Assembly: GCA_927443345.1 (NCBI GenBank)
Contig: CAKMKJ010000014.1
Location: forward strand, 1-64,000
Direction: 5' to 3'
DNA length: 64,000 nt
From: an uncultured Anaerolineaceae bacterium
Lineage (GTDB): Bacteria > Chloroflexota > Anaerolineae > Anaerolineales > Anaerolineaceae
The position numbers and the translations under genes are program-made. The notes under the pieces were generated by a model that did not search any database, had not been told where the DNA came from, and saw nothing but the letters and a program-made list of their open reading frames with translations. This document shows, piece by piece, positions 29,524-41,952 of the stretch (positions are counted from its first letter, which is position 1; every line of letters begins with the position of its first letter).

Positions 29524-32181
29524 ATGGTTAAAGATCCGGTATGCGGAATGGAAATTGATCCAAATGTGGCTTTTGAATCAAGAGAACACATGGAGCATAA
29601 ATATTTCTTTTGTTCTGAAAGTTGTTTACAAAAATTTGACAACAATCCACATCAATATGTGCTCATGACTGAGGACCCAATTGGCTCAGCCACTACTGGT
29701 TTTAATCCTAACACCAGAGTACTTCAAATTGAGTTACCTATCCTAGAGTTAGCTAAGGAGGGGCAACCTGGTGGTGAATTGATAAAGAAGGCATTAAAAA
29801 AACTCAATGGTATTGATAGAGTCATCGTAAATTCTACATCTGGGATAGTAGTAGTCGATTTTGATAATCAAGTTATCCAGATTCAAGAAATCGTGGGTGT
29901 TATTAAGAAAACAGGATATCTAGTAGGCGGTTCGAAAACGAGAATAGGAATTGAAAATATTCGCTGCACTTCATGTGTGGGTTTTATTGAAACGGAATTA
30001 AAGGCAACGCCAGGTGTGTTGGATGCTTCCGTTAATATAGCTACTCAAGAAGCTACCATAGACTATTTGCCAGAACAGACAACGCTCCATCGATTAAACT
30101 CGGCAATAGAGGATTGGGGTTATAAGACAAGACCTGCATTAAGTGAGGAGTCAGTTGATCAACAGCAAGCAGCTCATGAGAAAGAGTATAAGCGGTTGAT
30201 GAACCGTTTTTGGTTTGCTGCAATAATTTCAATACCAGTACTAATTACAGCCTATCCCAAATTCATACCACTTGTACGGGATTGGTCCATGACAACTTTA
30301 CGTGTTTCATGGTTTTTTGCCGCGTTATTAACTTTACCCGTTCTATTATGGTCTGGAGGCGACTTCTTTAATGGCGCTTGGGCAGCTCTGAAACACAGGG
30401 CAGCCAATATGAACACTTTAATCGCATTAGGCACGGGGGCAGCTTGGCTCTATTCAACGGTTGCAATTGGTTTCCCCGGCATATTTCCTGAGGGGACATC
30501 AGAACCCTTTTATGATGTCGTGGCTGTTGTCATCGCGCTTGTTGTTTTAGGTCAAGCATTGGAATTGCGAGCAAAAGGCCGAACAAGTGAGGCAATAAAG
30601 AAACTGATGGGCTTGCAGGCAAAAACCGCCCGCGTCATTCGAAATGGTGTTGAAATTGATATTCCTGTTGAAGAGGTTTTAGTTGGAGATACCGTTCAAG
30701 TGCGTCCAGGTGAAAAGATACCAGTTGATGGAGTAATTTTAGAAGGAAGTTCTGCTGTTGATGAATCTATGTTGACTGGTGAGAGTTTACCTTCGTCCAA
30801 GAAAGTGGGCGATGATGTAATTGGTGCCACATTAAATAAGACTGGTGCATTCAAATTCCGAACAACTAAAGTTGGTAAGGATACAGCACTAGCCCAGATC
30901 GTGAAAATGGTTCAGGATGCTCAGAATAGTAAGGCGCCGATCGCACGGTTGGCGGACACTATTTCAGGTTACTTTGTTCCAATTGTAATGATCCTTGCGG
31001 TGGTCACTTTTGTAATTTGGTTTGATTTTGGTCCAAAGCCGCAACTTATTTACGGATTAGTTACAGCAGTATCGGTATTGATTATTGCATGCCCTTGCGC
31101 ACTTGGACTTGCGACGCCGATGAGTTTAATGGTCGGAATTGGAAAAGGAGCTGAAAACGGTATCCTGATACGATCTGGCGAAGCTTTACAAACTGCACAA
31201 GGAATTAAAACCGTTGTTCTTGATAAAACCGGAACGATCACAAAAGGAAAACCGGAATTGACCGATTTATTGGTCGTAGATAAACAACAAGTTACTAGGG
31301 ATGAAATGTTGAGGCTAGCAGCTTCAGTAGAATCAATAAGTGAACATCCATTAGCCGAGGCCATTGTGGAAGGCGCTAGAAACAAAGGTTTATCGATTGG
31401 GAAACCAGAAGCTTTTGAAGCAGTCCCTGGACATGGTGTAATTGCCACAGTTGAAGGACAAAGGGTTGTACTGGGCAATCTGAAAATGATGAAACGGGAA
31501 AATGTAGATCTGGTTGATTTGGAAGTGAAATCTGAAGCGCTTGCTAATGATGGAAAAACGCCGATGTTTATAGCTTTGAATGGGAAGGCAGCAGGTATTA
31601 TCGCGGTCGCAGATACGGTAAAAGAAGATTCAAAAGAGGCTATTGCAGTTTTGCATAAGATGGGCATTGAAGTGGTTATGATTACTGGTGATAACCGCCG
31701 CACTGCAGAAGCCATCGCTCGTCAAGTTGGCGTGGATCGGGTTTTAGCTGAAGTATTACCTGAAGATAAAGCCCTTAACGTTCACTTATTGCAGGCCGAA
31801 GGAAAGAAAGTGGCTATGGTTGGAGATGGAATTAATGATGCTCCCGCATTAGCCCAAGCAGATGTTGGTTTAGCCATTGGCACTGGTACTGATGTCGCAA
31901 TAGAAGCATCTGATATTACTCTGATAAAGGGTAGTTTGAAAGGAGTTGTAACTGCTATTGAAGTAAGCAGAGCCACTATGCGTAATATCAAGCAGAATCT
32001 GGTAGGCGCGTTTATTTACAACATATTAGGAGTCCCTATTGCTATGGGAGTATTATTCCCATTCTTTGGAGTGCTTCTTAGTCCATTACTGGCTGGCGCA
32101 GCTATGGCGTTCTCTTCAGTTACTGTTGTTGGCAATGCCAACCGGCTGCGTGCTTTTCATCCAAAATTTAGTTCCCGTTAG
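29524..32181 (+). CDS. copA: Copper-exporting P1B-type ATPase with N-terminal YHS domain
   Basis: 885 residues. Order: YHS domain (1-45; DPVCGM, CSESC), an HMA-like fold lacking any Cys (about 70-135), an HMA with CTSC (about 148-210), then the eight-helix ATPase core. Core motifs: TGES actuator, ACPCALG in helix 6 (CPC, Cu(I) type), DKTGT, SEHPLAE and GDGINDAP. The enzyme exports Cu(I) from the cytoplasm. The Cys-free first HMA is an oddity suggesting a structural or regulatory role. It is followed 5 nt later by a cupredoxin that could receive the metal outside. Confidence 0.9.
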
Positions 32182-32186
32182 GAGAA

Positions 32187-32570
32187 TTGAACATGACAAC
32201 CCCTCAAATTATTGTAATGATCGGTGGAATACTGCTCATTCTATTTATTGCCTGGTTTTTCTGGTTATCTCCAAAAGAACAAACCCGAATATCTACCAAT
32301 AATAATGGCACACAGGAAGTAGCAATTACCGTAAAAGGTGGTTATACCCCGGATATTATTGTTGTCAAAGCGGGGCAACCCTTACGTATGCGTTTTACTA
32401 GACAGGAAAGTTCGTCCTGTTCTGAAACTGTAACCTTCCCTGATTTCAACAAAAGCGCGAAATTGCCAGAAGGACAAGAAGTAATTGTGGAGTTTACACC
32501 TGACAAACCGGGTGAATACGGTTTCCAATGCCTGATGGGTATGCTTCGTGGAAAATTGATTGTTGAATAA
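32187..32570 (+). CDS. Membrane-anchored cupredoxin-like protein (C...CxMGM type)
   Basis: 127 residues: N-terminal helix (about 7-27), then a cupredoxin-like domain (VVKAGQPLRMRF, SSCSETV, FQCLMGMLRG). The Cys-x-Met-Gly-Met motif together with an upstream SCS is shared with the C-terminal domain of the SafE fusion at 38193 (SCSRAF, CSMGMYGG). It probably binds Cu(I) delivered by the ATPase encoded immediately upstream; a canonical type 1 site (His-Cys-His-Met) is not present. Confidence 0.7.
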   Translation: MNMTTPQIIVMIGGILLILFIAWFFWLSPKEQTRISTNNNGTQEVAITVKGGYTPDIIVVKAGQPLRMRFTRQESSSCSETVTFPDFNKSAKLPEGQEVIVEFTPDKPGEYGFQCLMGMLRGKLIVE

Positions 32571-32676
32571 ACTAACAGGTTATTGGTTGTAGATTAATGG
32601 TTGATAATGAATCACCTGTTCAATTCTTAAAGAAACAGGATAGGTGATTGAAAATAATGAGATTCAAGGACGGATC

Positions 32677-33834
32677 ATGGAAAGAATAATCAAAGGATTG
32701 AGATCGAAGGATCGTCACATTTCTATAGATAGGGCGATTCTTATTGCTCTCGGTTTACTTGCCTTCTGGTTCATAGCATTGATGACTTTTATGGAAAACG
32801 GAAAGAATCATGCGATTAACATCGCATTTGTTAGTGTTTTGATGGTTTTGTTAATCGGACTCACTAGAGCACTAAAGAAAAATAAATATCAGGGTTATTT
32901 GATTGCTTTTGCCGCGGTAATGATTGCTGTTATAGGGTATTTCAGATTAAGTTCATTTTTTGTCCATACTGAAATTATTTTTACAATAGCAATAATTGGC
33001 GTTTCTGCCCGGTGGGGAACTCGCCAGGGTATTTTCTCTGCAGTCCTCGCCATGACAAGTAATGGATTATTGCATATTTTCTACGAACAAATGGGAATTG
33101 ATTTTGGAATATTTGCCATTGGCGGTTTTTTTCTTGCATCCGCTTTTATTATTGGCGCATTGAGTAAACAGCGGGAATCGGCTCTACAATCACGTGCTGA
33201 TATCAGTGAAGAATTGAACCAATCATATAATGAAACCTTGCATGCATTGGTCAAAGCTTTGGATACGCGTGATAATGAAACCGGAGGCCATTCTGAAAGG
33301 GTTACATTAATCGCTCTTTCGATCGCTCAGCAAATGAATTTAGACGAAAAACAGATTCAACAAATTCATTGGGGTGCATTGTTGCACGACGTAGGCAAGA
33401 TCGGAATTCCGGATAATATACTTCGAAAACCCGGAAAACTAACTGAAGAAGAGTGGAAAATCATGCGTTCACATCCGCAAACCGGATATGAAATGTTAAA
33501 AGGAATACCCTTTCTAGCACCTGCATTGGATGTTGTCCTCCACCATCATGAGCGGTTTGATGGCTCTGGCTACCCTTCAGGTTTGGCTGGAAAGGACATC
33601 CCCCTCTCGGCACGGATTTTTACAATTGCAGATACTTTTGATGCCATGACTAATGATCGACCATACAGGAAAGCATTTGCTCTAGAAATAGCGTTAGACG
33701 AGATTCAAAAATGTGCAAACACTCAATTTGATCCTGAGATAGTCAATGTTTTTCTCAAGGGTAATAAATCATTTATTACTGAAACTTCGAAAGAAGTATT
33801 AAGTAAAACAGTTAATTCATTTGGAGAAAAATGA
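32677..33834 (+). CDS. Membrane-bound HD-GYP phosphodiesterase
   Basis: 385 residues from ATG 32677 (AAGGACGGATC upstream); a GTG at 32644 is less likely. Five or so transmembrane helices (about 15-165) precede an HD-GYP domain with HSERV, LLHDVGKIG, HHHERFDGSGYP and DTFDAMTNDRPYR. HD-GYP enzymes hydrolyse cyclic-di-GMP. Key residues are intact. Its stop overlaps the start of a diguanylate cyclase gene, so both opposing activities are made together. Confidence 0.85.
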   Translation: MERIIKGLRSKDRHISIDRAILIALGLLAFWFIALMTFMENGKNHAINIAFVSVLMVLLIGLTRALKKNKYQGYLIAFAAVMIAVIGYFRLSSFFVHTEIIFTIAIIGVSARWGTRQGIFSAVLAMTSNGLLHIFYEQMGIDFGIFAIGGFFLASAFIIGALSKQRESALQSRADISEELNQSYNETLHALVKALDTRDNETGGHSERVTLIALSIAQQMNLDEKQIQQIHWGALLHDVGKIGIPDNILRKPGKLTEEEWKIMRSHPQTGYEMLKGIPFLAPALDVVLHHHERFDGSGYPSGLAGKDIPLSARIFTIADTFDAMTNDRPYRKAFALEIALDEIQKCANTQFDPEIVNVFLKGNKSFITETSKEVLSKTVNSFGEK

Positions 33835-34682
33835 AACAACTAACCCAGAGGAAAAATAAATTGAGCGATTCACCTAAACATGCATTATTAAATGATGTCT
33901 TAATCGCATTGGTATGGGCATTATTGGTTGGTGTACCACTTTTTGTGGTTCATATGGTGCTTTTTGATTTTGAACACAGCCAACACATGGATGAATCCTA
34001 CTCATTCATCCAATCAATTACTTCTTCAGTTCCTCACCATCCTATAAGTCTTAGCCTCTGGCTATCGGCTATATTTATAGCAACCTTTGCTATACGGCGA
34101 TCATTTCAACAAAAAATATTTTTAACACACGTTCAAGCGGAATTAACATTATCCCAAACTCAAGCCCTTAGCGATGGTTTGACTGGAACTTGGAACAGGG
34201 CTGGATTTGATCAATTATTTGAGATGAACCTTAAACGAGGCCAAGAACAAAATCGTTTTTTTTCTGTTATTTTAGGCGATGTCGATGGATTAAAAGAATA
34301 TAACGACACTTATGGTCATCCAGCTGCAGATGAGGCATTGAAAGCTGTTACAAAGATCCTTTCTGAGCAATGCCGAGCAATTGATGAGCTCGCTAGATAT
34401 GGTGGGGATGAATTTGCCCTATTTTGCATAGATATTGATCAACGTGGGGCTGAGATATTAATAACTAGGTTGCGGGAGGCGTTAAAGAACGCACCAGTTT
34501 CTATGAGTTTTGGAACAGCCACATTTCCGACTGATGGCGTAGACAGGCATACACTACTTGGTAAGGCGGATGTTACGCTTTATGCTGCAAAATCAAAAGT
34601 ACCATCACATAACGAGGCCATTGAAAATTGTGAATGTGAGGTCTGCAACCAAAAGAAACATTTTAAGAGAAGTGGTGCTTGA
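33831..34682 (+). CDS. GGDEF diguanylate cyclase, membrane-bound
   Basis: 283 residues: two transmembrane helices (about 20-42 and 76-90), a periplasmic loop with clustered His (EHSQHMDE, VPHHP), then a GGDEF domain (about 115-265) with RYGGDEFALF intact and DGLTGTWNRAGF at its start. It makes cyclic-di-GMP. An ATGA overlap couples it to the HD-GYP gene. The short His-rich loop could sense metal, a guess. The C-terminus ends with CECEVC, a further possible thiol site. Confidence 0.8.
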   Translation: MKQLTQRKNKLSDSPKHALLNDVLIALVWALLVGVPLFVVHMVLFDFEHSQHMDESYSFIQSITSSVPHHPISLSLWLSAIFIATFAIRRSFQQKIFLTHVQAELTLSQTQALSDGLTGTWNRAGFDQLFEMNLKRGQEQNRFFSVILGDVDGLKEYNDTYGHPAADEALKAVTKILSEQCRAIDELARYGGDEFALFCIDIDQRGAEILITRLREALKNAPVSMSFGTATFPTDGVDRHTLLGKADVTLYAAKSKVPSHNEAIENCECEVCNQKKHFKRSGA

Positions 34683-34808
34683 ATCAATGCAGTTTCAGAT
34701 AATAACCTGAACTATTAAGATTTGTGTGGTCAAAACCATTGACCGAATTAAAGGCAGATTTGTTTGTTGCAATTAAGATTTAGAAATTTAGGATATAATT
34801 GCCCTATT

Positions 34809-34895
34809 ATGAAATCGAAAAGTTTTGGCCAATTGATTGTTTGTTGCTCCTGTATCCGGCGGGGATGCTCTTTACCGCCTGGTTATCGTTCCTGA
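34809..34895 (+). CDS. Cys-rich leader peptide
   Basis: 28 codons starting ATG AAA TCG and ending TCC TGA. Cys occurs at positions 12, 13, 15 and 20 (VCCSCI, then RGCSL). The ATG lies about 10 nt after the -10, so the transcript would be nearly leaderless, and no ribosome site is seen. Cys-rich leaders control cysteine genes by ribosome stalling in Actinobacteria; here the same logic would act through the terminator at 34918-34976. Coding status is inferred from the Cys clustering and position. Confidence 0.55.
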   Translation: MKSKSFGQLIVCCSCIRRGCSLPPGYRS

Positions 34896-34917
34896 CGATT
34901 ATTAGCCAACTGCCCGG

Positions 34918-34976
34918 CGGCAGACAGTTTCCCCGCAAAATTACTTTTGTTACGGTGAAACTTTCTGCCGTTTTTT
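34918..34976 (+). terminator. Attenuator terminator before cystathionine beta-synthase gene
   Basis: CGGCAGACAGTTTC (34918-34931) pairs with GAAACTTTCTGCCG (34957-34970) with one mismatch, followed by six T. It lies 41 nt before the start codon at 35017, so it can only act as a regulated terminator if the gene is to be expressed from the upstream promoter. Confidence 0.75.
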
Positions 34977-35016
34977 ATTCCAGTTGGCTATAGTAAAAAT
35001 ATCGATAGGTGACGAA

Positions 35017-36471
35017 ATGACGAACACAACTGTTCAAACCATTATGGGTGTGGCAACCCAAAATACTCAACCTCAATTTAGCAAGAATATATTGGAAACC
35101 ATCGGTAATACCCCCTTGGTGCGCCTTAATCAAATTGTATTCGGCAACTGCTCTGCAACCATCCTTGCCAAAGTGGAATTCTTCAACCCGGCAGGCTCAA
35201 TCAAGGACCGCATTGGGTTGAGCATTATTGAGAACGCTGAAAAAGAAGGCTGCTTGCTGCCTGGCGGCACCATAGTTGAAGCTACCTCCGGCAACACAGG
35301 GGCAGGCCTGGCACTGGCTGCTTCGATCAAAGGCTATAAAACCATTTTTGTCATGCCAGACAAGATGAGCGATGAAAAGATCCGCTTTTTACGCGCTTTC
35401 GGCGCCCGGGTGGTGATTACACCGACAGCCGTCGCGCCGGAAGATCCGCGCAGTTACTACAGTGTGGCTGCCCGCATCGTAAAAGAAACACCTAACAGCA
35501 TGCTGGCGAATCAATACCATAACCAATCAAACCCCGAAGCTCATTACCAATTCACGGGGCCTGAGTTGTGGGAACAAACCGCTGGAAAAATAGATGTATT
35601 GGTGGCGGGTATGGGCACAGGCGGAACGATCACTGGTACCGCACGCTACTTAAAGGAACAAAACCCCAACATCAAAGTGGTGGGTGTGGATATCGAAGGC
35701 TCTCTCTTGCTTGAAACCTGGAAAGAGGGCAAGATGCCGAGTGATCCGCATCCCAAGACCTACAAGATCGAAGGTATAGGTGAGGATTTCCTCCCAAGCA
35801 CGCTGGACCTTTCGCTGGTGGACGAAGTGGTTCAGGTCAGCGATAAAGAATCTTTCCAACTCGCGAGGCGCCTGGTTCGCGAAGAGGGCATTTTTGCAGG
35901 CGGGTCATCAGGGTCAGCTGTTGCAGGAGTGTTAAAATCTGAAATAGTACGATCACTCAAACCGGGGCAAATTGTTGTGGTCATCCTGCCGGATTCTGGC
36001 AATCGCTACCTGTCGAAATTATTTGATGACAACTGGATGCGCGAAAACAGCTTTTTACCGGATAACAAGGTGACTGATAGCGTGATGACGCTCATCGAAA
36101 CCCACCAAAAACTCCCATTGGTCGTGACGCGTTCTGATGAGGAAATGAACGTGGTGGTCAGCAAAATGAATCAATATGACATTTCTCAGTTGCCCGTGGT
36201 GGATGATCAGGATAAATTGATTGGCATGGTGGGTGAAGCGGATGTGCTTGACCATTTGTTGAAATCCACACATGTGCATGATCCGCTGGAGACGATTGCT
36301 TCGATCATCAATCCCAATGTACTGTCTGTCACTCCGGAATCAAGCATCGAAAAGGTACTTCCCGCTTTTGAGCGCGGTAAAGTGGTAATCGTTGTTAATA
36401 ATGAAGGGCAGCCGGTGGGTATGCTTACAAAGATCGATCTGATCGATTACTTGACTGGCAAGATCAACTAA
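35017..36471 (+). CDS. Cystathionine beta-synthase-type PLP enzyme with CBS domain pair
   Basis: 484 residues. N-terminal fold-type II PLP domain: NTPLVRLN, the PLP Lys in GSIKDRIG (about 62), TSGNTG substrate loop and GTGGTITG phosphate loop. The C-terminal 125 residues hold two CBS domains (VTDSVMT..., NVLSVTP...), usual in cystathionine beta-synthases, where they can bind adenosyl ligands. It joins Ser or activated Ser with homocysteine, or makes Cys from sulfide; the PLP core alone does not decide. AGGTGA precedes the ATG at 35017. Paired with the convergent gamma-type enzyme it suggests transsulfuration from Met to Cys. Confidence 0.85.
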   Translation: MTNTTVQTIMGVATQNTQPQFSKNILETIGNTPLVRLNQIVFGNCSATILAKVEFFNPAGSIKDRIGLSIIENAEKEGCLLPGGTIVEATSGNTGAGLALAASIKGYKTIFVMPDKMSDEKIRFLRAFGARVVITPTAVAPEDPRSYYSVAARIVKETPNSMLANQYHNQSNPEAHYQFTGPELWEQTAGKIDVLVAGMGTGGTITGTARYLKEQNPNIKVVGVDIEGSLLLETWKEGKMPSDPHPKTYKIEGIGEDFLPSTLDLSLVDEVVQVSDKESFQLARRLVREEGIFAGGSSGSAVAGVLKSEIVRSLKPGQIVVVILPDSGNRYLSKLFDDNWMRENSFLPDNKVTDSVMTLIETHQKLPLVVTRSDEEMNVVVSKMNQYDISQLPVVDDQDKLIGMVGEADVLDHLLKSTHVHDPLETIASIINPNVLSVTPESSIEKVLPAFERGKVVIVVNNEGQPVGMLTKIDLIDYLTGKIN

Positions 36472-36484
36472 ATTCCAAAAATTC

Positions 36485-36528
36485 AACAGAACAGGCACTC
36501 TTGAAGAAACCAAGTGCCTGTTCTGTCC
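36485..36528. terminator. Bidirectional terminator between convergent genes
   Basis: CAGAACAGGCACT (36487-36499) pairs perfectly with AGTGCCTGTTCTG (36513-36525). It sits between two genes that converge, so it probably serves both. Confidence 0.75.
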
Positions 36529-36543
36529 ATCGGTAAAAACTAG

Positions 36544-37710
36544 TTACAGCGTTGCTAATGCTTGATCCAAATCCTGGATCAAGTCTTCTATGTTTTCAAT
36601 GCCAACTGAGAGCCGCACCAATCCGGCGGGGACTTCGAGAGCACTGCCGGCCACAGAGGCGTGCGTCATCAAGGCAGGCACTTCGATCAAAGATTCCACG
36701 CCGCCCAGGCTTTCGGCCAGAGTGAATATTTTGGTCGCTTCAACCAATTTTTTGGCTGCAGGTGCGCCGCCTTTAAGAATAACGGAGAGCATGCCGCCAT
36801 ACAGCTTCATTTGTTTCTTAGCCACGAGATGCCCGGGGTGACTCTCAAGACCTGGATAGATCACCCGTTCAATCACGGGATGAGTGACGAGATATTTGGC
36901 TACCTCGGCCGCGTTGACTGAATGGCGCTCCATGCGCAGGGCGAGGGTCTTGATACCTCTCAAGGTCAACCAGCTATCTTGCGGTCCGGGGACTGCGCCG
37001 ATAGCATTCTGAAGGAACTTCAATTTCTCATAATGTGCTTTGTTTTTAATAATGATAGCTCCGCCGACCACATCGGAATGTCCGCCAAGGTATTTGGTGG
37101 TCGAGTGCACCACAAAATCTGCGCCAAGACCCAGAGGCTGCTGAAGATAGGGGGACGCGAAAGTATTATCCACGGCCACCAGAATTTGAGTGGAATGCGC
37201 TTTTACGCGTTTGGATATTTCTGCAATATCGGCGATCTTGAGCAGCGGGTTGGTGGGGGTCTCGATCCAGACCAGGCGGGTTTCAGGTTTAAGTGCAGCC
37301 TCGATCAGGCTGGGATCGGTGATATCCACATAGGAGAATTGAATGCCATAGTCTTTCAGCACCTTGTCAAACAAGCGGAAGGTGCCGCCGTACACATCAT
37401 TGGATGCAAGCACATGCTCACCGGGTTTGATCAGGCGTAGCAGCGTATCCGTGGCGGCCAGGCCGGAGGAGAATGCCAAACCATATGCAGGGTGATTCTG
37501 ATCGGGGCTTTCGAGGGCAGCCAAACATTGTTCCAATGCCTGGCGGGTGGGGTTGTCAGATCGGCTGTAGTCAAACCCCTTGGTCACTCCCACGGCGACT
37601 TGCGCATAGGTGGAGGTTTGATAGATTGGGGTAATAACGGCGCCCGTGGCCGTATCAGGTGCCTGGCCTGCGTGGATGGCAAGTGTTTCGAAATGAGGTT
37701 CAAGTTTCAT
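36544..37710 (-). CDS. Cystathionine gamma-synthase/lyase family PLP enzyme
   Basis: 388 residues. Fold-type I Cys/Met metabolism enzyme: YSRSDNPTR, ASNDVYGGTF, the PLP Asp/Ser region VAVDNTFASPYLQ, and the PLP Lys in HSTTKYLGGH. ATG 37710 is chosen because AGG lies 9 nt upstream; an ATG 6 nt earlier is too close to it. The family includes cystathionine gamma-synthase and gamma-lyase, which sequence alone does not separate. Next to a beta-synthase-type gene, a gamma-lyase role in reverse transsulfuration is the simpler reading. Confidence 0.85.
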   Translation of the reverse strand: MKLEPHFETLAIHAGQAPDTATGAVITPIYQTSTYAQVAVGVTKGFDYSRSDNPTRQALEQCLAALESPDQNHPAYGLAFSSGLAATDTLLRLIKPGEHVLASNDVYGGTFRLFDKVLKDYGIQFSYVDITDPSLIEAALKPETRLVWIETPTNPLLKIADIAEISKRVKAHSTQILVAVDNTFASPYLQQPLGLGADFVVHSTTKYLGGHSDVVGGAIIIKNKAHYEKLKFLQNAIGAVPGPQDSWLTLRGIKTLALRMERHSVNAAEVAKYLVTHPVIERVIYPGLESHPGHLVAKKQMKLYGGMLSVILKGGAPAAKKLVEATKIFTLAESLGGVESLIEVPALMTHASVAGSALEVPAGLVRLSVGIENIEDLIQDLDQALATL

Positions 37711-37716
37711 TTGCAT

Positions 37717-37964
37717 TTTCCTAAAGAGGCCGTTAACTTTAAATGATTTGCTTTGGGTATTCTACTTTATTTATTGATAAAAAATATATTTTACTTATTA
37801 TTGAATGACTACACTGTTTATTGAAATTACTGCAGCAAAACCTTTAAAAAGAATTATTGTTGAAAAGTAAGTAAATCCCATAAAAACCTATTAGCAGATT
37901 GTTATATCCTATAAGTGAAAATTAGGTTTTATCATTCTTCCAGAAGAAAAATTAGTTAACATTA
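37717..37964. other. AT-rich intergenic region
   Basis: Upstream region of the leftward gamma-type enzyme and downstream of a leftward chaperone. AAAACCTA (about 37883-37890) and TAGGTTTT (37923-37930) could pair across a 32-nt loop, a weak terminator for the chaperone. No other element is clear. Confidence 0.35.
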
Positions 37965-38183
37965 TTAGATACCATCGGCAACCTCATACCCCATTCGTTT
38001 TACTTCAGCTTTGATCTGATCTTTTGAAAGCAACGATTCTTCATATTCAACTATCAATTGCGTTTTTCGATAACTGGCCTCAGCCGACTTAACTCCTTTT
38101 AGCTTATCCTCAATCCCTTCAAGGATCATGGCGCAATTCGGACATTCCATTCCGTTAATCTTCAAGGTTATTTGTTTTATCAT
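37965..38183 (-). CDS. Copper chaperone (HMA domain)
   Basis: 72 residues, a complete HMA fold with metal site MECPNCAMI (CxxC at about 13-16) and the usual closing GYEV strand. CopZ-like by size: it would carry Cu(I) to the copper ATPases. It lies 9 nt downstream of the SafE-cupredoxin gene in the same direction, so the pair is likely an operon divergent from the copper ATPase at 39526. Confidence 0.8.
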   Translation of the reverse strand: MIKQITLKINGMECPNCAMILEGIEDKLKGVKSAEASYRKTQLIVEYEESLLSKDQIKAEVKRMGYEVADGI

Positions 38184-38192
38184 ACTATCCTC

Positions 38193-39329
38193 TTAGAGAT
38201 CAAAGATTATTGTTCCACCATACATACCCATGGAACAGGAAAAATAGATTTGTGTGCCACTGATTTGAGCAGGTATTTGAATCATAGCTTGACCGGTTTC
38301 ATCAAGGATTTGCTGTACACCTAATGAAGGAATTATAAAAGCTCGAGAACAAGACTGAACATTATCTGTAATCAACTTTAATGTGACAGGAATTCCAGCC
38401 TTGGCATGGACTTCATTTGGATAGTAACCCGAGTTTTGTACATTGATGGTTAACAATCTTCCTTCTGAGTCAGAAGAACCTGTTATCGTCTCGTCTGTAA
38501 AAGGTTCAGTAGATTGTGCCACTTGATCAGTGGCAACGGCTGCCACATTCTGCGGCTTGGGGAAAACACTGTTTGCCAGCCGTGAGAATGTATAGGGCGA
38601 ACCAGCCAGGGTGAGCCCGCTGTTGATGGTCACAAGTGCTAATACCAAAACCACGATAGCTACAAAGCGCATGAAGTATTTTTCGAGCTTTTGGCCCAAT
38701 TGTGTGGCGAAATAGGATACTGCAAAGAAGACCGGGCTTGTACCTAAAGTAAAGGCGAACATCAATGCAGCTCCTTGGATCGGATCGCCCGTCCCTAAAG
38801 CAACAGCCATCATAGCCTGGGCTACACCACAAGGAATGAGTACGGTCATGAATCCTAAAAAGGCGGGTGTTACAAGGGTTGAATTATCTGCCTCTTTGGA
38901 TGTTTTTCGTATAAAGCGGCGAAGAAACGTTGGAGGTTCAAAAACAAAAATCCTAAAAATAGGGTGAACATTTAACATGCGTAAAGCAGAGCCAAGCATG
39001 AAGATACCAATCCCGATTTGTAGAAATGCACGTGCAATTGGAGAAAGTTGAAAAGCCTGTCCGACTAAACCCAACAAGAAACCAAGAATGGAATATGCTA
39101 ATAACTTAGCAATTAGAAAAACCAAAATAGGAAGCGCAAGCTTTGATCTTGAGGGCTTGATATTCTTCTTGTTTCTTCCTTTTCTTTGGCCTGCATTTTG
39201 AAAATCTTTTTCAATCTGGTTTTCGAGAGAACTTGCAAGAAGCCCTCCTTGAACAGCCAAACAACTTAATCCGCCTGAAGTAAGACCTGTGACAAAAGCA
39301 ATCAGAATATTATTCAATTTGTTCTCCAT
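38193..39329 (-). CDS. SafE/DsbD-like membrane protein fused to cupredoxin domain
   Basis: 378 residues. N-terminal six-helix membrane part of the TauE/SafE or CcdA/DsbD type (SGGLSCLAVQGG early, VLIPCGVAQAMM later, each with a Cys near a helix end), then from about residue 275 a cupredoxin-like domain with SCSRAF and YFSCSMGMYGGT. SafE-like proteins of this kind (UreH/CcdA-like) are often linked to copper supply for oxidases. The fused domain resembles the stand-alone protein at 32187. It is divergent from copA and shares its dyad. Confidence 0.75.
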   Translation of the reverse strand: MENKLNNILIAFVTGLTSGGLSCLAVQGGLLASSLENQIEKDFQNAGQRKGRNKKNIKPSRSKLALPILVFLIAKLLAYSILGFLLGLVGQAFQLSPIARAFLQIGIGIFMLGSALRMLNVHPIFRIFVFEPPTFLRRFIRKTSKEADNSTLVTPAFLGFMTVLIPCGVAQAMMAVALGTGDPIQGAALMFAFTLGTSPVFFAVSYFATQLGQKLEKYFMRFVAIVVLVLALVTINSGLTLAGSPYTFSRLANSVFPKPQNVAAVATDQVAQSTEPFTDETITGSSDSEGRLLTINVQNSGYYPNEVHAKAGIPVTLKLITDNVQSCSRAFIIPSLGVQQILDETGQAMIQIPAQISGTQIYFSCSMGMYGGTIIFDL

Positions 39330-39403
39330 TATTAAATATTAAATCAATAAAAACAAAATTCAATTCATCTGGTTGAGTCTAACATTTCAGCTCTAACTAA
39401 TGA

Positions 39404-39471
39404 ATAGGCATAATTGCCTGTTGATAATGGGGGTATGGCCTATTGAAGCAATCAATTCTTTTGAATAAGAT
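39404..39471 (+). promoter_or_regulatory. Regulon promoter P11
   Basis: The best dyad of the set, ATAGGCATAATTGCCTGT (39404-39421; AGGCA-N4-TGCCT), with -10 TAAGAT at 39466-39471 (62 nt). The second GC-N6-RC box is not well kept here. It lies between the divergent SafE fusion and copA genes and could serve both, but no -10 at matching distance is clear on the minus strand. Confidence 0.6.
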
Positions 39472-39525
39472 TGATTGCGATCAATGAGCTTTATTTTTAT
39501 AAATTTATCTTACAACGAGGACTTT

Positions 39526-41952
39526 ATGACCGATATTCGACTGATTACTCTCCCCATAACCGGCATGACTTGTGCCAATTGTTCTGCCGCCGTAGAGCGT
39601 TCACTAAAGAAAGCTACCGGAGTGAAAAGCGCTTCAGTAAACCTTTCATCAGAACGTGCGACTGTTGAGTTTGACCCGCAGGCATCCACATTAATCGATT
39701 TGGTAGGTCGTGTGCAGCATGCAGGCTATGGAATCGCCGAAGGTGAAGCAGATTTGATCATTAAGCGCATGAGCGATGACAATGATGCGCGTCGTTTAGA
39801 AAAGGCGCTTTCTTCAATAGAAGGTGTCAGTGAAGTGCACGTCAGCTTTACAACAGAAAAAGTTCAACTGCGTTACATCCCCACATTGGTAAGCCAAACC
39901 GACCTGCGCCGCGCAATTTCAGCGGCAGGTTTTGAAGCACTTGAAACAGGTGGCGATGCAGAAGATGCTGAAGCTATGGCGCGGCAGAAAGAGATCGACC
40001 AACAAAAAAGGCAATTGACGATCGGTTTGATTTTCACTGTCCCTCTATTTGTAATTGCCATGTCGGGAGATCTTGGATTACTGCCGATGCAAATTTCACA
40101 CTCGACCTGGATCAAGTGGATCATGCTCGTCTTGGCTCTGCCGGTTCAGTTCTACGTTGGATGGCAATACTATGTTGGTGCATTCAAGTCGCTACGCAAC
40201 GGCTCTGCGAACATGGATGTACTCGTATCACTCGGTACTTCCGCTGCCTTCCTTTATTCGCTGCCAGTAACCTTTGGTCTGTTGTCTGGGCATGTTTATT
40301 TCGAAACCGCCGCTGTGATCATTGTTTTGATCAAACTGGGTAAGTTGTTGGAAGTTCGTGCCAAGGGACGTACCAGCGAAGCCATCAAGAAGCTAATGGG
40401 ACTTCGTGCTAAAAGTGCCCGTATCATCCGCAATGGACAAGAGATGGAAGTGCCGGTTGAGGATGTGTTGGTGGGTGATGTGATCATTGTACGACCTGGC
40501 GAGAAGATCCCGGTGGACGGCGTGGTTGTTGAAGGCCGTTCATCAGTGGATGAGTCCATGTTAACCGGTGAATCCATGCCGGTTGAAAAGGGACCAGGTG
40601 CGGCGGTTATCGGTGCGACCCTGAACAAACTAGGGATGATCAAATTCGAAGCCACCAAAATTGGAAAAGAAACTGCCCTGGCGCAGATTATTCGCCTCGT
40701 GGAAGAAGCCCAAGGGTCCAAAGCCCCTATCCAAAAGTTGGTGGACCGCATCTCAGGTTATTTTGTTCCTGCTGTTATTGGTATGGCTCTACTCACTTTT
40801 GCAGCCTGGATGTTTTTTGGTCCACCCCTCTCGATCAATTCTGATGTGAGCGTGTTTACCCGTGCATTGATAGTCATGGTCGCAGTACTTGTGATCGCCT
40901 GCCCATGCGCCATGGGCTTGGCTACCCCCACGGCGGTTATGGTGGGGACTGGCAGAGGCGCTGAAATGGGTGTGTTGCTCAAAACATCCGAAGCCCTTGA
41001 ACGTGCCGGACACGTGAAGATGATTGTCTTGGATAAAACTGGCACGATTACCAAAGGCCAGCCCTCGGTTACAGATATAGTGGTCACAAATGCACGCTTC
41101 AAAGAGAATGACATTTTACGGATGGCGGCTTCAGTAGAAAAAGGATCCGAACATCCATTGGGTGAGGCTGTGGTTGCTGAGGCAAGCAATCGAGACTTGA
41201 AGCTTTCCGAACCGCAAGGCTTTAGCGCCACTGCCGGCCACGGTGTCGAAGCTCAGGTGGATGGATTGCAGGTGCTGGTTGGCAGTCCGCGCATGATGAC
41301 AGAACGACAGCTTGATACCAGTGCATTTGATGCTGAGGTTTCGCGACTGCAAGGCGAAGGAAAAACCACGGTGCTAGTAGCAATCGATAATGTCGTGTCT
41401 GGCGCAATCGCAATTGCTGATACAGTCAAAGAAGGTTCCATCGAGGCCATTCAACAGTTTCACAAGATGGGTATCAAAGTGGCCATGCTAACTGGGGATA
41501 ATCAACAAACTGCCCAGGCCATCGCCAAACAAGTGGGCATTGACCAGGTGTTTGCAGAAGTCCTGCCGGGAGACAAGGCTGCTGAAGTCAAGAAACTTCA
41601 GGCGCAAGGGTATGTAACCGCCATGGTGGGGGATGGTGTCAATGACGCGCCCGCTTTGGCTCAATCCGATGTGGGCATCGCTATCGGAACTGGTGCGGAT
41701 GTGGCCATGGCTTCTGCACCCGTGGTTCTAATCAGCGGAGATTTGCGAGGGGCCGCAAGAGCAATCCAGCTCTCACGCGTCACAATGACCACCATCAAGC
41801 AGAACCTGTTCTGGGCGTTTATCTACAACATCATCCTCATCCCCGCAGCGGCGCTGGGTTATCTGGTGCCAGTATTGGCGGCAGGTGCAATGGCATTCAG
41901 CAGCGTATTTGTGGTCACCAACAGCCTCCGGCTGCGTACAAAGAAAATCTAA
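39526..41952 (+). CDS. copA: Copper-exporting P1B-type ATPase
   Basis: 808 residues from ATG 39526 (AACGAGGAC upstream). First HMA with MTCANCS (about 12-18), a second HMA fold without CxxC (about 78-140), then eight helices. Core motifs: [14 protein letters not shown] (Cu(I) type CPC), DKTGT, SEHPLGE and GDGVNDAP. It exports Cu(I). It is richer in GC than the ATPase at 29524, suggesting a different origin for the two copies. It is followed by a lipoprotein gene 26 nt on. Confidence 0.9.

Follow-up and report, generated by a model that had tools for sequence, protein, structure and literature searches.

A candidate cysteine-responsive transcription attenuator upstream of cysteine and sulphur genes in Anaerolineales (Chloroflexota)

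The leader locus and its features

The window, i.e. the whole 64-kb stretch of DNA analysed here, carries on its forward strand a gene for a cystathionine beta-synthase/cysteine synthase-type enzyme with CBS domains (PALP, E value 9.6e-79; CBS, E value 3e-19). Upstream, a GGDEF gene on the same strand ends at 34682, and the sequence between the two genes holds a short Cys-rich ORF followed by a predicted terminator. The features of this leader and of the gene behind it are as follows:

34794–34799, + strand: TATAAT, −10 box of a presumed promoter, as read from the sequence
34809–34895, + strand: leader ORF MKSKSFGQLIVCCSCIRRGCSLPPGYRS, 28 codons plus TGA, with Cys at codons 12, 13, 15 and 20
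34845–34853, + strand: putative core control codons TGC-TCC-TGT (Cys-X-Cys), codons 13 to 15
34859–34876, + strand: region 1(+2), predicted 5′ strand of the antiterminator, beginning 14 nt past the first core Cys codon
34875–34879, + strand: region 2, CCGCC, a possible partner of the GGCGG in region 1 (hairpin 1:2) or of that in region 3
34905–34912 and 34981–34988, + strand: outer helix GCCAACTG/CAGTTGGC around the terminator, from an RNAalifold consensus of 11 leaders
34910–34923, + strand: small hairpin CTGCC-CGGC-GGCAG, found in CBS-type leaders
34916–34937, + strand: regions 3 and 3′ (GGCGGCAGACAGTTTCCCCGCA), predicted 3′ strand of the antiterminator, which also supplies the left arm of the terminator
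34918–34976, + strand: predicted intrinsic terminator, stem 34918–34931/34957–34970, then TTTTTT at 34971–34976
35017–36471, + strand: presumed regulated gene, the cystathionine beta-synthase/cysteine synthase-type enzyme with CBS domains

The initial annotation of this DNA had described a 28-codon frame starting about 10 nt past TATAAT, a small hairpin overlapping the left arm of a 14-bp terminator stem, six T after that stem and a cystathionine beta-synthase-type gene next in line. The frame and its four Cys codons agree with that description base for base (ATG at 34809, nine bases past TATAAT; TGA at 34893–34895), the small hairpin lies where it had been placed and overlaps the left arm of the stem (34918–34931), the stem and its six T are present, with 13 of the 14 stem positions pairing when the two arms are compared, and the gene with PALP and CBS domains begins at the ATG at 35017.

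The terminator has a predicted energy of −27.2 kcal/mol, and the antiterminator duplex formed by 34859–34876 and 34918–34937 one of −20.8 kcal/mol. Folding of the strand 34806–34980 gave −52.9 kcal/mol, a value equalled by none of 200 dinucleotide shuffles (z −3.28). In several of the 11 relatives, T runs stand behind the right arm of the outer helix; the window has none there.

By prediction, the window ORF is leaderless or nearly so. Its presumed promoter has a weak −35 match (2/6 positions), and the −10 box is absent from the output of a simple consensus scan; TATAAT also stands 8–9 nt 5′ of the ATG in two related leaders (L112 and L195). The window peptide returned no Pfam family at E ≤ 0.001, and four leader peptides of at least 20 residues returned no NCBIfam family at E ≤ 10.

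The surroundings of the CBS-type gene (29524–41952) include cupredoxin-like and DsbD-like genes, an opposite-strand Cys/Met-metabolism PLP enzyme (36544–37716) and frames that by eye resemble metal-transport ATPases.

Related leaders, their reading frame and downstream genes

A protein search of the genome collection with the window enzyme, from which the best 80 of 570 loci were kept, revealed the same leader upstream of the closest CBS orthologues (L032–L040, L044 and L045) and of L047. On inspection of L002–L099 and the window, the leader was not seen before most orthologues of less than about 65 % identity, nor before L041–L043 (66–69 %). Leaders of relatives were aligned, as the initial annotation had proposed, and the Cys codons, the frame and the stems were all found to be kept: across 11 leaders (alignment A1), Cys-X-Cys followed by GGCGGG and CCGCC is invariable, GGCGGCAGACAG, CCCCGC and the T run are kept with few changes, and the first codons are variable.

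A covariance model (R1) built from A1 matched 76 of 151 genomes, the window's own included (E ≤ 1). Of its 99 matches, 83 leaders were tabulated, leaving out eight partial matches, one that is identical to the window leader (G001:C40) and the seven weakest (E 0.126–0.84); two genomes of these weakest matches (G099 and G116) were later positive by pattern search. The 83 leaders fall into 50 clusters at 70 % identity, and the named relatives are mostly MAGs. In the window genome itself, a second copy of the leader (L148; contig C84, 12193–12395) precedes a 310-residue cysK-type gene.

All 83 leaders encode Cys-X-Cys in a short frame, which takes the form CxCxRRG in 51/83 and CxCxxRG in 71/83 (e.g. 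MELCVCLGRGLSQPPRI and MKQTCLCTRRGTI). When the Cys frame is followed in the 5′ direction from the core, it reaches an ATG before any stop in 82/83 leaders, compared with 1/83 and 7/83 in the other two frames (49/50 vs 1/50 and 4/50 after 70 % clustering). With this ATG in 82/83 and Cys-X-Cys in 83/83, the leaders appear to possess what characterises an amino-acid leader, namely a short frame in which the regulated amino acid is encoded.

Leaders differ in the length and sequence of their 5′ part, and their first codons are not kept. The starts appear to be of two kinds: in 11/82 leaders the ATG lies 4–13 nt past the predicted −10 box, with 6–16 codons before the core, while in 68/82 it lies at least 20 nt past the predicted −10, typically with 3–5 codons before the core (three are intermediate). 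The distance from the predicted −10 to the core is alike in both kinds (mean 44 and 48 nt), the boxes being predictions from a search confined to the stretch 22–80 nt 5′ of the core, so that only a limited span of distances could be detected. Since an SD-like motif is present in 45 of the 82 leaders with an in-frame ATG, the earlier description 'nearly leaderless' holds for the window and for a minority of its relatives (the 11/82 above) and does not extend to the family as a whole.

The next long frame behind the leader is of PALP type (cysK/CBS), with similarity to the window enzyme at E ≤ 1e-5, in 75/83 cases. Serine acetyltransferase-like frames follow L130, L187 and L189 (SATase_N domain) and L191 (hexapeptide repeats only); a rhodanese and then SufE follow L139; a sulphur-transport protein and then a rhodanese follow L192; and DUF4395 proteins (Pfam) follow L180 and L190, the frame after that of L190 having a thioredoxin match below the curated cut-off. 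This association suggests that DUF4395 has a role in cysteine or sulphur metabolism.

Class, phylum and order searches with pattern filtering yielded 38 further leader places (loci L196–L272), of which 28 precede cysteine or sulphur genes of the above types; in nine of these 28, the next frame in line is cysE-like. Of the remaining ten, seven lack an in-frame ATG (L242, L244, L245, L246, L251, L264 and L271), and L265 has an in-frame ATG but no long frame downstream. L243 has a nitrite/sulphite reductase downstream, and in L272 (G129) a leader-like frame, MNNSWCMCIGRGHIFASI, stands before a lipoprotein-like frame, 60 residues of which gave no Pfam match. L196 and L233 also precede DUF4395 proteins, as assigned by similarity. 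The parts of the leader, their conservation, its reading frame and its link to cysteine and sulphur genes are thus directly legible in these sequences.

With respect to distribution, 24 of 396 genomes in a class-wide draw matched at E ≤ 0.01, and 23 of these belong to the same order. A strict pattern matched 21/36 genomes of the order and 5/364 others in a phylum sample; since the reversed control matches as many genomes (5/400), there is no excess outside the order. When either Cys codon was allowed, 80 of 251 genomes drawn from the order were positive, against eight for the reversed control. The class-wide draw and the pattern searches therefore indicate that the leader element is mainly confined to one order, the Anaerolineales, where it does not occur in every genome. 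One of the five out-of-order pattern matches is leader-like, namely L243 (G164, another order of the class), a likely outlier with the leader MLYFIHCICMRRGQQIPRLQ and a GCGGGGACA/TGTCCCCGC match. A wider spread was rejected: L073 belongs to G1015, a genome titled Armatimonadetes, and in 43 genomes from its phylum one match was obtained, compared with two control-positive genomes.

Locus L047 (Chloroflexus sp. isolate DR5_57_13) has a clear leader, MCMCMRRGL, before a CBS-type gene and would lie outside the order if its Chloroflexus label is correct; the same genome holds a second R1 match. Another genome carries the CBS-type gene with its leader twice on contig JAKAFP010000004.1 (L032 and L034), about 49 kb apart, and the sequence 5′ of the leader differs between the two. 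From such sequences, the leader and the CBS-type gene seem to move or duplicate together as a unit.

Alternative helices and ribosome position

A terminator-like hairpin of −20 kcal/mol or lower is predicted in 65/83 leaders, compared with 4/83 shuffled sequences; when a hairpin of any energy is accepted, the figures are 80/83 and 64/83. The general antiterminator is, by prediction, a long helix whose 5′ strand begins 14 nt past the first core Cys codon and runs from GCGGGG to about CCGCC, and whose partner is the left arm of the terminator together with the adjoining CCCCGC. The antiterminator and the terminator, which share this left arm, are mutually exclusive helices as read from the sequences.

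Comparison of native with swapped partners lent support to this helix. Across the 83 leaders, native sequences pair better in region 1 (z −8.9), region 2 (z −8.2) and the 1:2 hairpin (z −6.7), with none of 2000 permutations as good for any of the three, whereas the controls do not (Cys zone, z +0.8; 5′ control, z +1.5). The 50 cluster representatives gave similar values (region 1, z −8.7; region 2, −6.2; 1:2, −6.6; controls, +0.7 and +0.6), again with 0/2000 permutations as good for region 1. All six core antiterminator pairs are complete in 72/83 leaders, compared with 31/83 when the downstream sequence is reversed (75/83 vs 43/83 with a 3-nt shift permitted); as the reversed control is also high and base composition explains much, this G/C-rich core helix is weak evidence when taken alone. 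The antiterminator case is helped by changed pairs, for example A-T for G-C in L181 and L190.

Pair counts were made on representatives kept by script (38/50; terminator of −15 kcal/mol or lower, 60–95 nt past the core), after which leaders with an insertion or a displaced terminator arm were removed by hand (L180 and L190 from alignment A3; L136, L180, L190, L192 and L194 from A4). Owing to this selection by terminator and the removal by hand, the sample is biased towards structure. In A3 (36 leaders, approximate away from the core), 84.3 % of antiterminator cells are paired, compared with 42–56 % when the helix is slid, and 18 cells are double-changed, compared with 8.9 in shuffles that do not account for relatedness among the leaders (1/500 as high; covariation score, 7/500). 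There is no excess in the number of pairs with a double change (230/500 shuffles as high) or of pair types (102/500), and slid versions of the antiterminator reach an equal number of pairs with a double change. The double changes are confined to the four extension pairs; the six core pairs have none.

For the terminator, A4 (33 leaders, likewise approximate away from the core) has 79.7 % of cells paired, compared with 30–66 % when slid, and 23 double-changed cells, compared with 10.9 in the same kind of shuffles (2/500 as high; covariation score, 1/500); pairs with a double change (60/500) and pair types (33/500) did not beat the shuffles. The 1:2 hairpin, a candidate for the protector or pause hairpin of such attenuators, is 83.9 % paired, with two double-changed cells only and covariation measures for which 26 to 191 of 500 shuffles were as high. 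Predicted hairpins and pair counts together point to the intrinsic terminator expected of an attenuator.

The small hairpin at 34910–34923 had been put forward as the element that switches the terminator. A hairpin at this position was found in 11/74 leaders, including nine CBS-type leaders whose stem reads (C)TGCC/GGCA(G), and this rarity rules it out as a general switch; the alternative retained is the pairing of 34859–34876 with 34918–34937.

A ribosome covers 13 nt ahead of the start of its A-site codon. Taking this as the assumed ribosome edge, we folded only the RNA ahead of the ribosome, at equilibrium, for the 73/83 leaders with an ATG and a terminator of −15 kcal/mol or lower. Before region 4 (the right arm of the terminator) emerges, the model gives the antiterminator an occupancy of 0.74 when the A site holds the first Cys codon (at least 0.4 in 73/73 leaders), 0.54 when it holds the second (68/73) and 0.06 when it holds the stop codon (0/73); with no ribosome it is 0.72 (68/73). 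In full-length RNA, the occupancy of the terminator is 0.40 with the ribosome at the first Cys codon, 0.30 one codon on, 0.53 at the second Cys codon and 0.82–0.83 from +24 onward; in 61/82 leaders the stop codon is found at +24 or +27. Without a ribosome the full-length terminator reaches 0.50, close to the 0.53 of the second Cys codon. Given this value and the antiterminator occupancy of 0.72 in ribosome-free RNA, the model does not explain how expression would stay low when the leader is untranslated, nor how stalling at the second Cys codon would act.

The window leader is longer (stop at +48), and its full-length terminator has an occupancy of 0.87–0.88 in every state. As the terminator wins the full-length equilibrium throughout, a switch in the window would have to be kinetic, with the antiterminator forming first. 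Since a masked strand is unable to pair by design, the simulation is a test of consistency and not of function. The pairing counts and the ribosome-position folding are, in silico, consistent with a mutually exclusive antiterminator that would be released by stalling.

Proposed attenuation, its alternatives and codon order

From the sequence comparisons and the modelled folding, we consider it highly probable that the leader controls transcription by ribosome-mediated attenuation in response to charged tRNA-Cys. Transcription would start a few bases 5′ of the leader ATG, and a ribosome trailing the RNA polymerase would translate the leader. When charged tRNA-Cys is scarce, the ribosome would stall on the Cys-X-Cys codons, with its front edge approximately 13 nt ahead, just 5′ of the GCGGGG strand (34859). 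The free strand starting there would pair with the left arm of the terminator (34918–34937) and, with this arm taken by the antiterminator, the terminator would be blocked and the cysteine gene transcribed. When cysteine is plentiful, the ribosome would reach the stop codon and cover the 5′ strand of the antiterminator, in which case the terminator (34918–34976) would form and transcription would end. The use of the promoter, the translation of the leader, the stalling and the resulting change in transcription are the inferred steps of this scheme. The initial annotation had likewise proposed a cysteine attenuator; its Cys-codon frame and intrinsic terminator are kept in relatives, while its scheme of hairpins was only partly right.

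Mycobacterial polycysteine leaderless short ORFs, reportedly the subject of a study by Canestrari (2020), offer a different model, namely translation attenuation, in which a ribosome stalled at Cys codons would free the ribosome-binding site of the downstream gene, the stem-loop being mere mRNA structure. In the portions available of PMC9031893 and PMC13236596, such ORFs are cited as translation attenuators of cysteine genes, acting on downstream translation, and they resemble the window leader in their Cys-codon frame, leaderless initiation (nearly leaderless, by prediction, in the window) and control of cysteine genes (presumed in the window). We regard this explanation as improbable for the Chloroflexota leaders, which, unlike the mycobacterial ORFs described in those portions, keep a terminator and a competing antiterminator and have an SD-like motif in 45/82 cases: a stable hairpin with a T run is present in 65/83 leaders vs 4/83 shuffled sequences, and it is the left arm of the terminator that changes partner.

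Direct sensing by the RNA, in the manner of a riboswitch or T-box, with TGCNNNTGT as the binding motif and the frame secondary, would account for the near-invariance of TGC and TGT in leaders of genomes whose long frames use both codons. However, the frame is open to an ATG in 82/83 leaders vs 1/83 and 7/83 in control frames, the X codon varies, the 5′ part is variable in length and sequence, and the Cys zone has no native pairing downstream, making a sensor of this kind very unlikely. At gathering score, the window and 20 related loci gave 0 Rfam matches, and at E ≤ 5 the leader region gave one weak snoRNA match only (E 0.49); a riboswitch, T-box or other catalogued RNA was rejected for want of a match at gathering score. 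Finally, the GGDEF gene that ends at 34682 is on the same strand, but the chance that its ordinary terminator merely stands beside an accidental Cys-rich frame is negligible, as this is contradicted by conservation of the leader unit across 50 clusters at 70 % identity and by its presence before the CBS-type gene of L034, where the upstream sequence is another, and before the cysK-type gene elsewhere in the window genome (L148).

The attenuator reading can be set beside known systems. In the trp attenuator, region 1 lies under the stalled ribosome and region 2 is thereby freed. The Chloroflexota leader shares control codons, alternative hairpins and a U-tract terminator with the trp/his-type enteric attenuators but differs from trp in that the strand just ahead of the stalled ribosome would be the 5′ part of the antiterminator. 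The known system nearest in kind, on the available part of PMC8632094, is the uORFC-8-2 motif before cysS in Rhodobacterales, for which ribosome-mediated attenuation is predicted and which likewise has a short uORF, two conserved Cys codons and an intrinsic terminator. There, the Cys codons are in tandem (usually 14 and 15), with UGC dominant and UGU also seen, and are contained in the first stem, whereas the Chloroflexota leader has Cys-X-Cys with TGC then TGT, an antiterminator past the Cys codons and cysteine/sulphur genes downstream. In Actinobacteria, Seliverstov et al. 2005 (PMC1262725, in the part available) describe runs of Cys codons in short ORFs before the cys operons of Mycobacterium and Propionibacterium acnes and before Bifidobacterium longum cbs, a likeness to the leaders studied here; unlike in these leaders, no conserved terminator-capable hairpins were found in the Mycobacterium regions, and other attenuator elements are called missing.

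In the open-licence literature, nothing was found joining Chloroflexi, transcription attenuation and leader peptides; among the matches listed for related topics, none appeared to treat a Chloroflexota cysteine leader, and the main text of PMC2965389 (premature terminators) is without cysK or Chloroflexi. The remark in the initial annotation that no description was known in Chloroflexota is uncontradicted in this literature, and a cysteine attenuator of this kind is apparently undescribed in the phylum. The variant would be set apart by Cys-X-Cys with a near-fixed codon order and by an antiterminator that begins where the leading edge of a stalled ribosome is expected, and is predicted to serve several cysteine and sulphur genes within one order of the Chloroflexota. 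For this phylum, which has few genetic tools, it would provide a predicted cysteine-responsive regulon legible directly from sequence, tie poorly known genes (DUF4395, the sulphur-transport protein and the rhodanese–SufE pairs) to cysteine supply and allow a natural comparison of leaderless and SD-led starts inside one attenuator family.

The codon order itself was striking. The first core Cys codon is TGC in 82/83 leaders and the second TGT in 83/83 (49/50 and 50/50 after 70 % clustering), counts that are biased because R1 was trained on leaders with these codons; the X codon between them varies. Long frames have 40 TGC and 44 TGT in the window and 101 TGC and 40 TGT in the fetched loci, and as TGC is the commoner in the latter, the invariant TGT is the more surprising of the two. 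An order-wide pattern allowing both codons in both places listed 94 matches, with 83 TGC..TGT, five TGT..TGT, six TGC..TGC and no TGT..TGC, several of which are presumably due to chance since the reversed control yields nine; of the six TGC..TGC matches four were examined, and none of these precedes a cysteine-type gene. Pairing with downstream sequence was rejected as the cause of the invariance, as the Cys zone has no excess of native pairing, and silent swaps change folding little on average (C2 to T, +0.24 kcal/mol, sd 1.10; T8 to C, +0.12 kcal/mol, sd 1.69).

UGU is read by wobble by tRNA-Cys(GCA), and this is a possible reason for the fixed order; the weaker modelled switch with the second Cys codon in the A site counts against it. 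It is conceivable, although we lean against it, that the ordered UGC-UGU pair is part of the sensor, with UGU as a tuned slow site and UGC as the first stall site. If so, codon identity and not the amino acid alone would be under selection in an order-wide cysteine and sulphur regulon, and the near-invariant TGC/TGT order makes such codon-level tuning of attenuators directly testable. The UGU codon stands 8 nt, and the UGC codon 14 nt, before the antiterminator strand.
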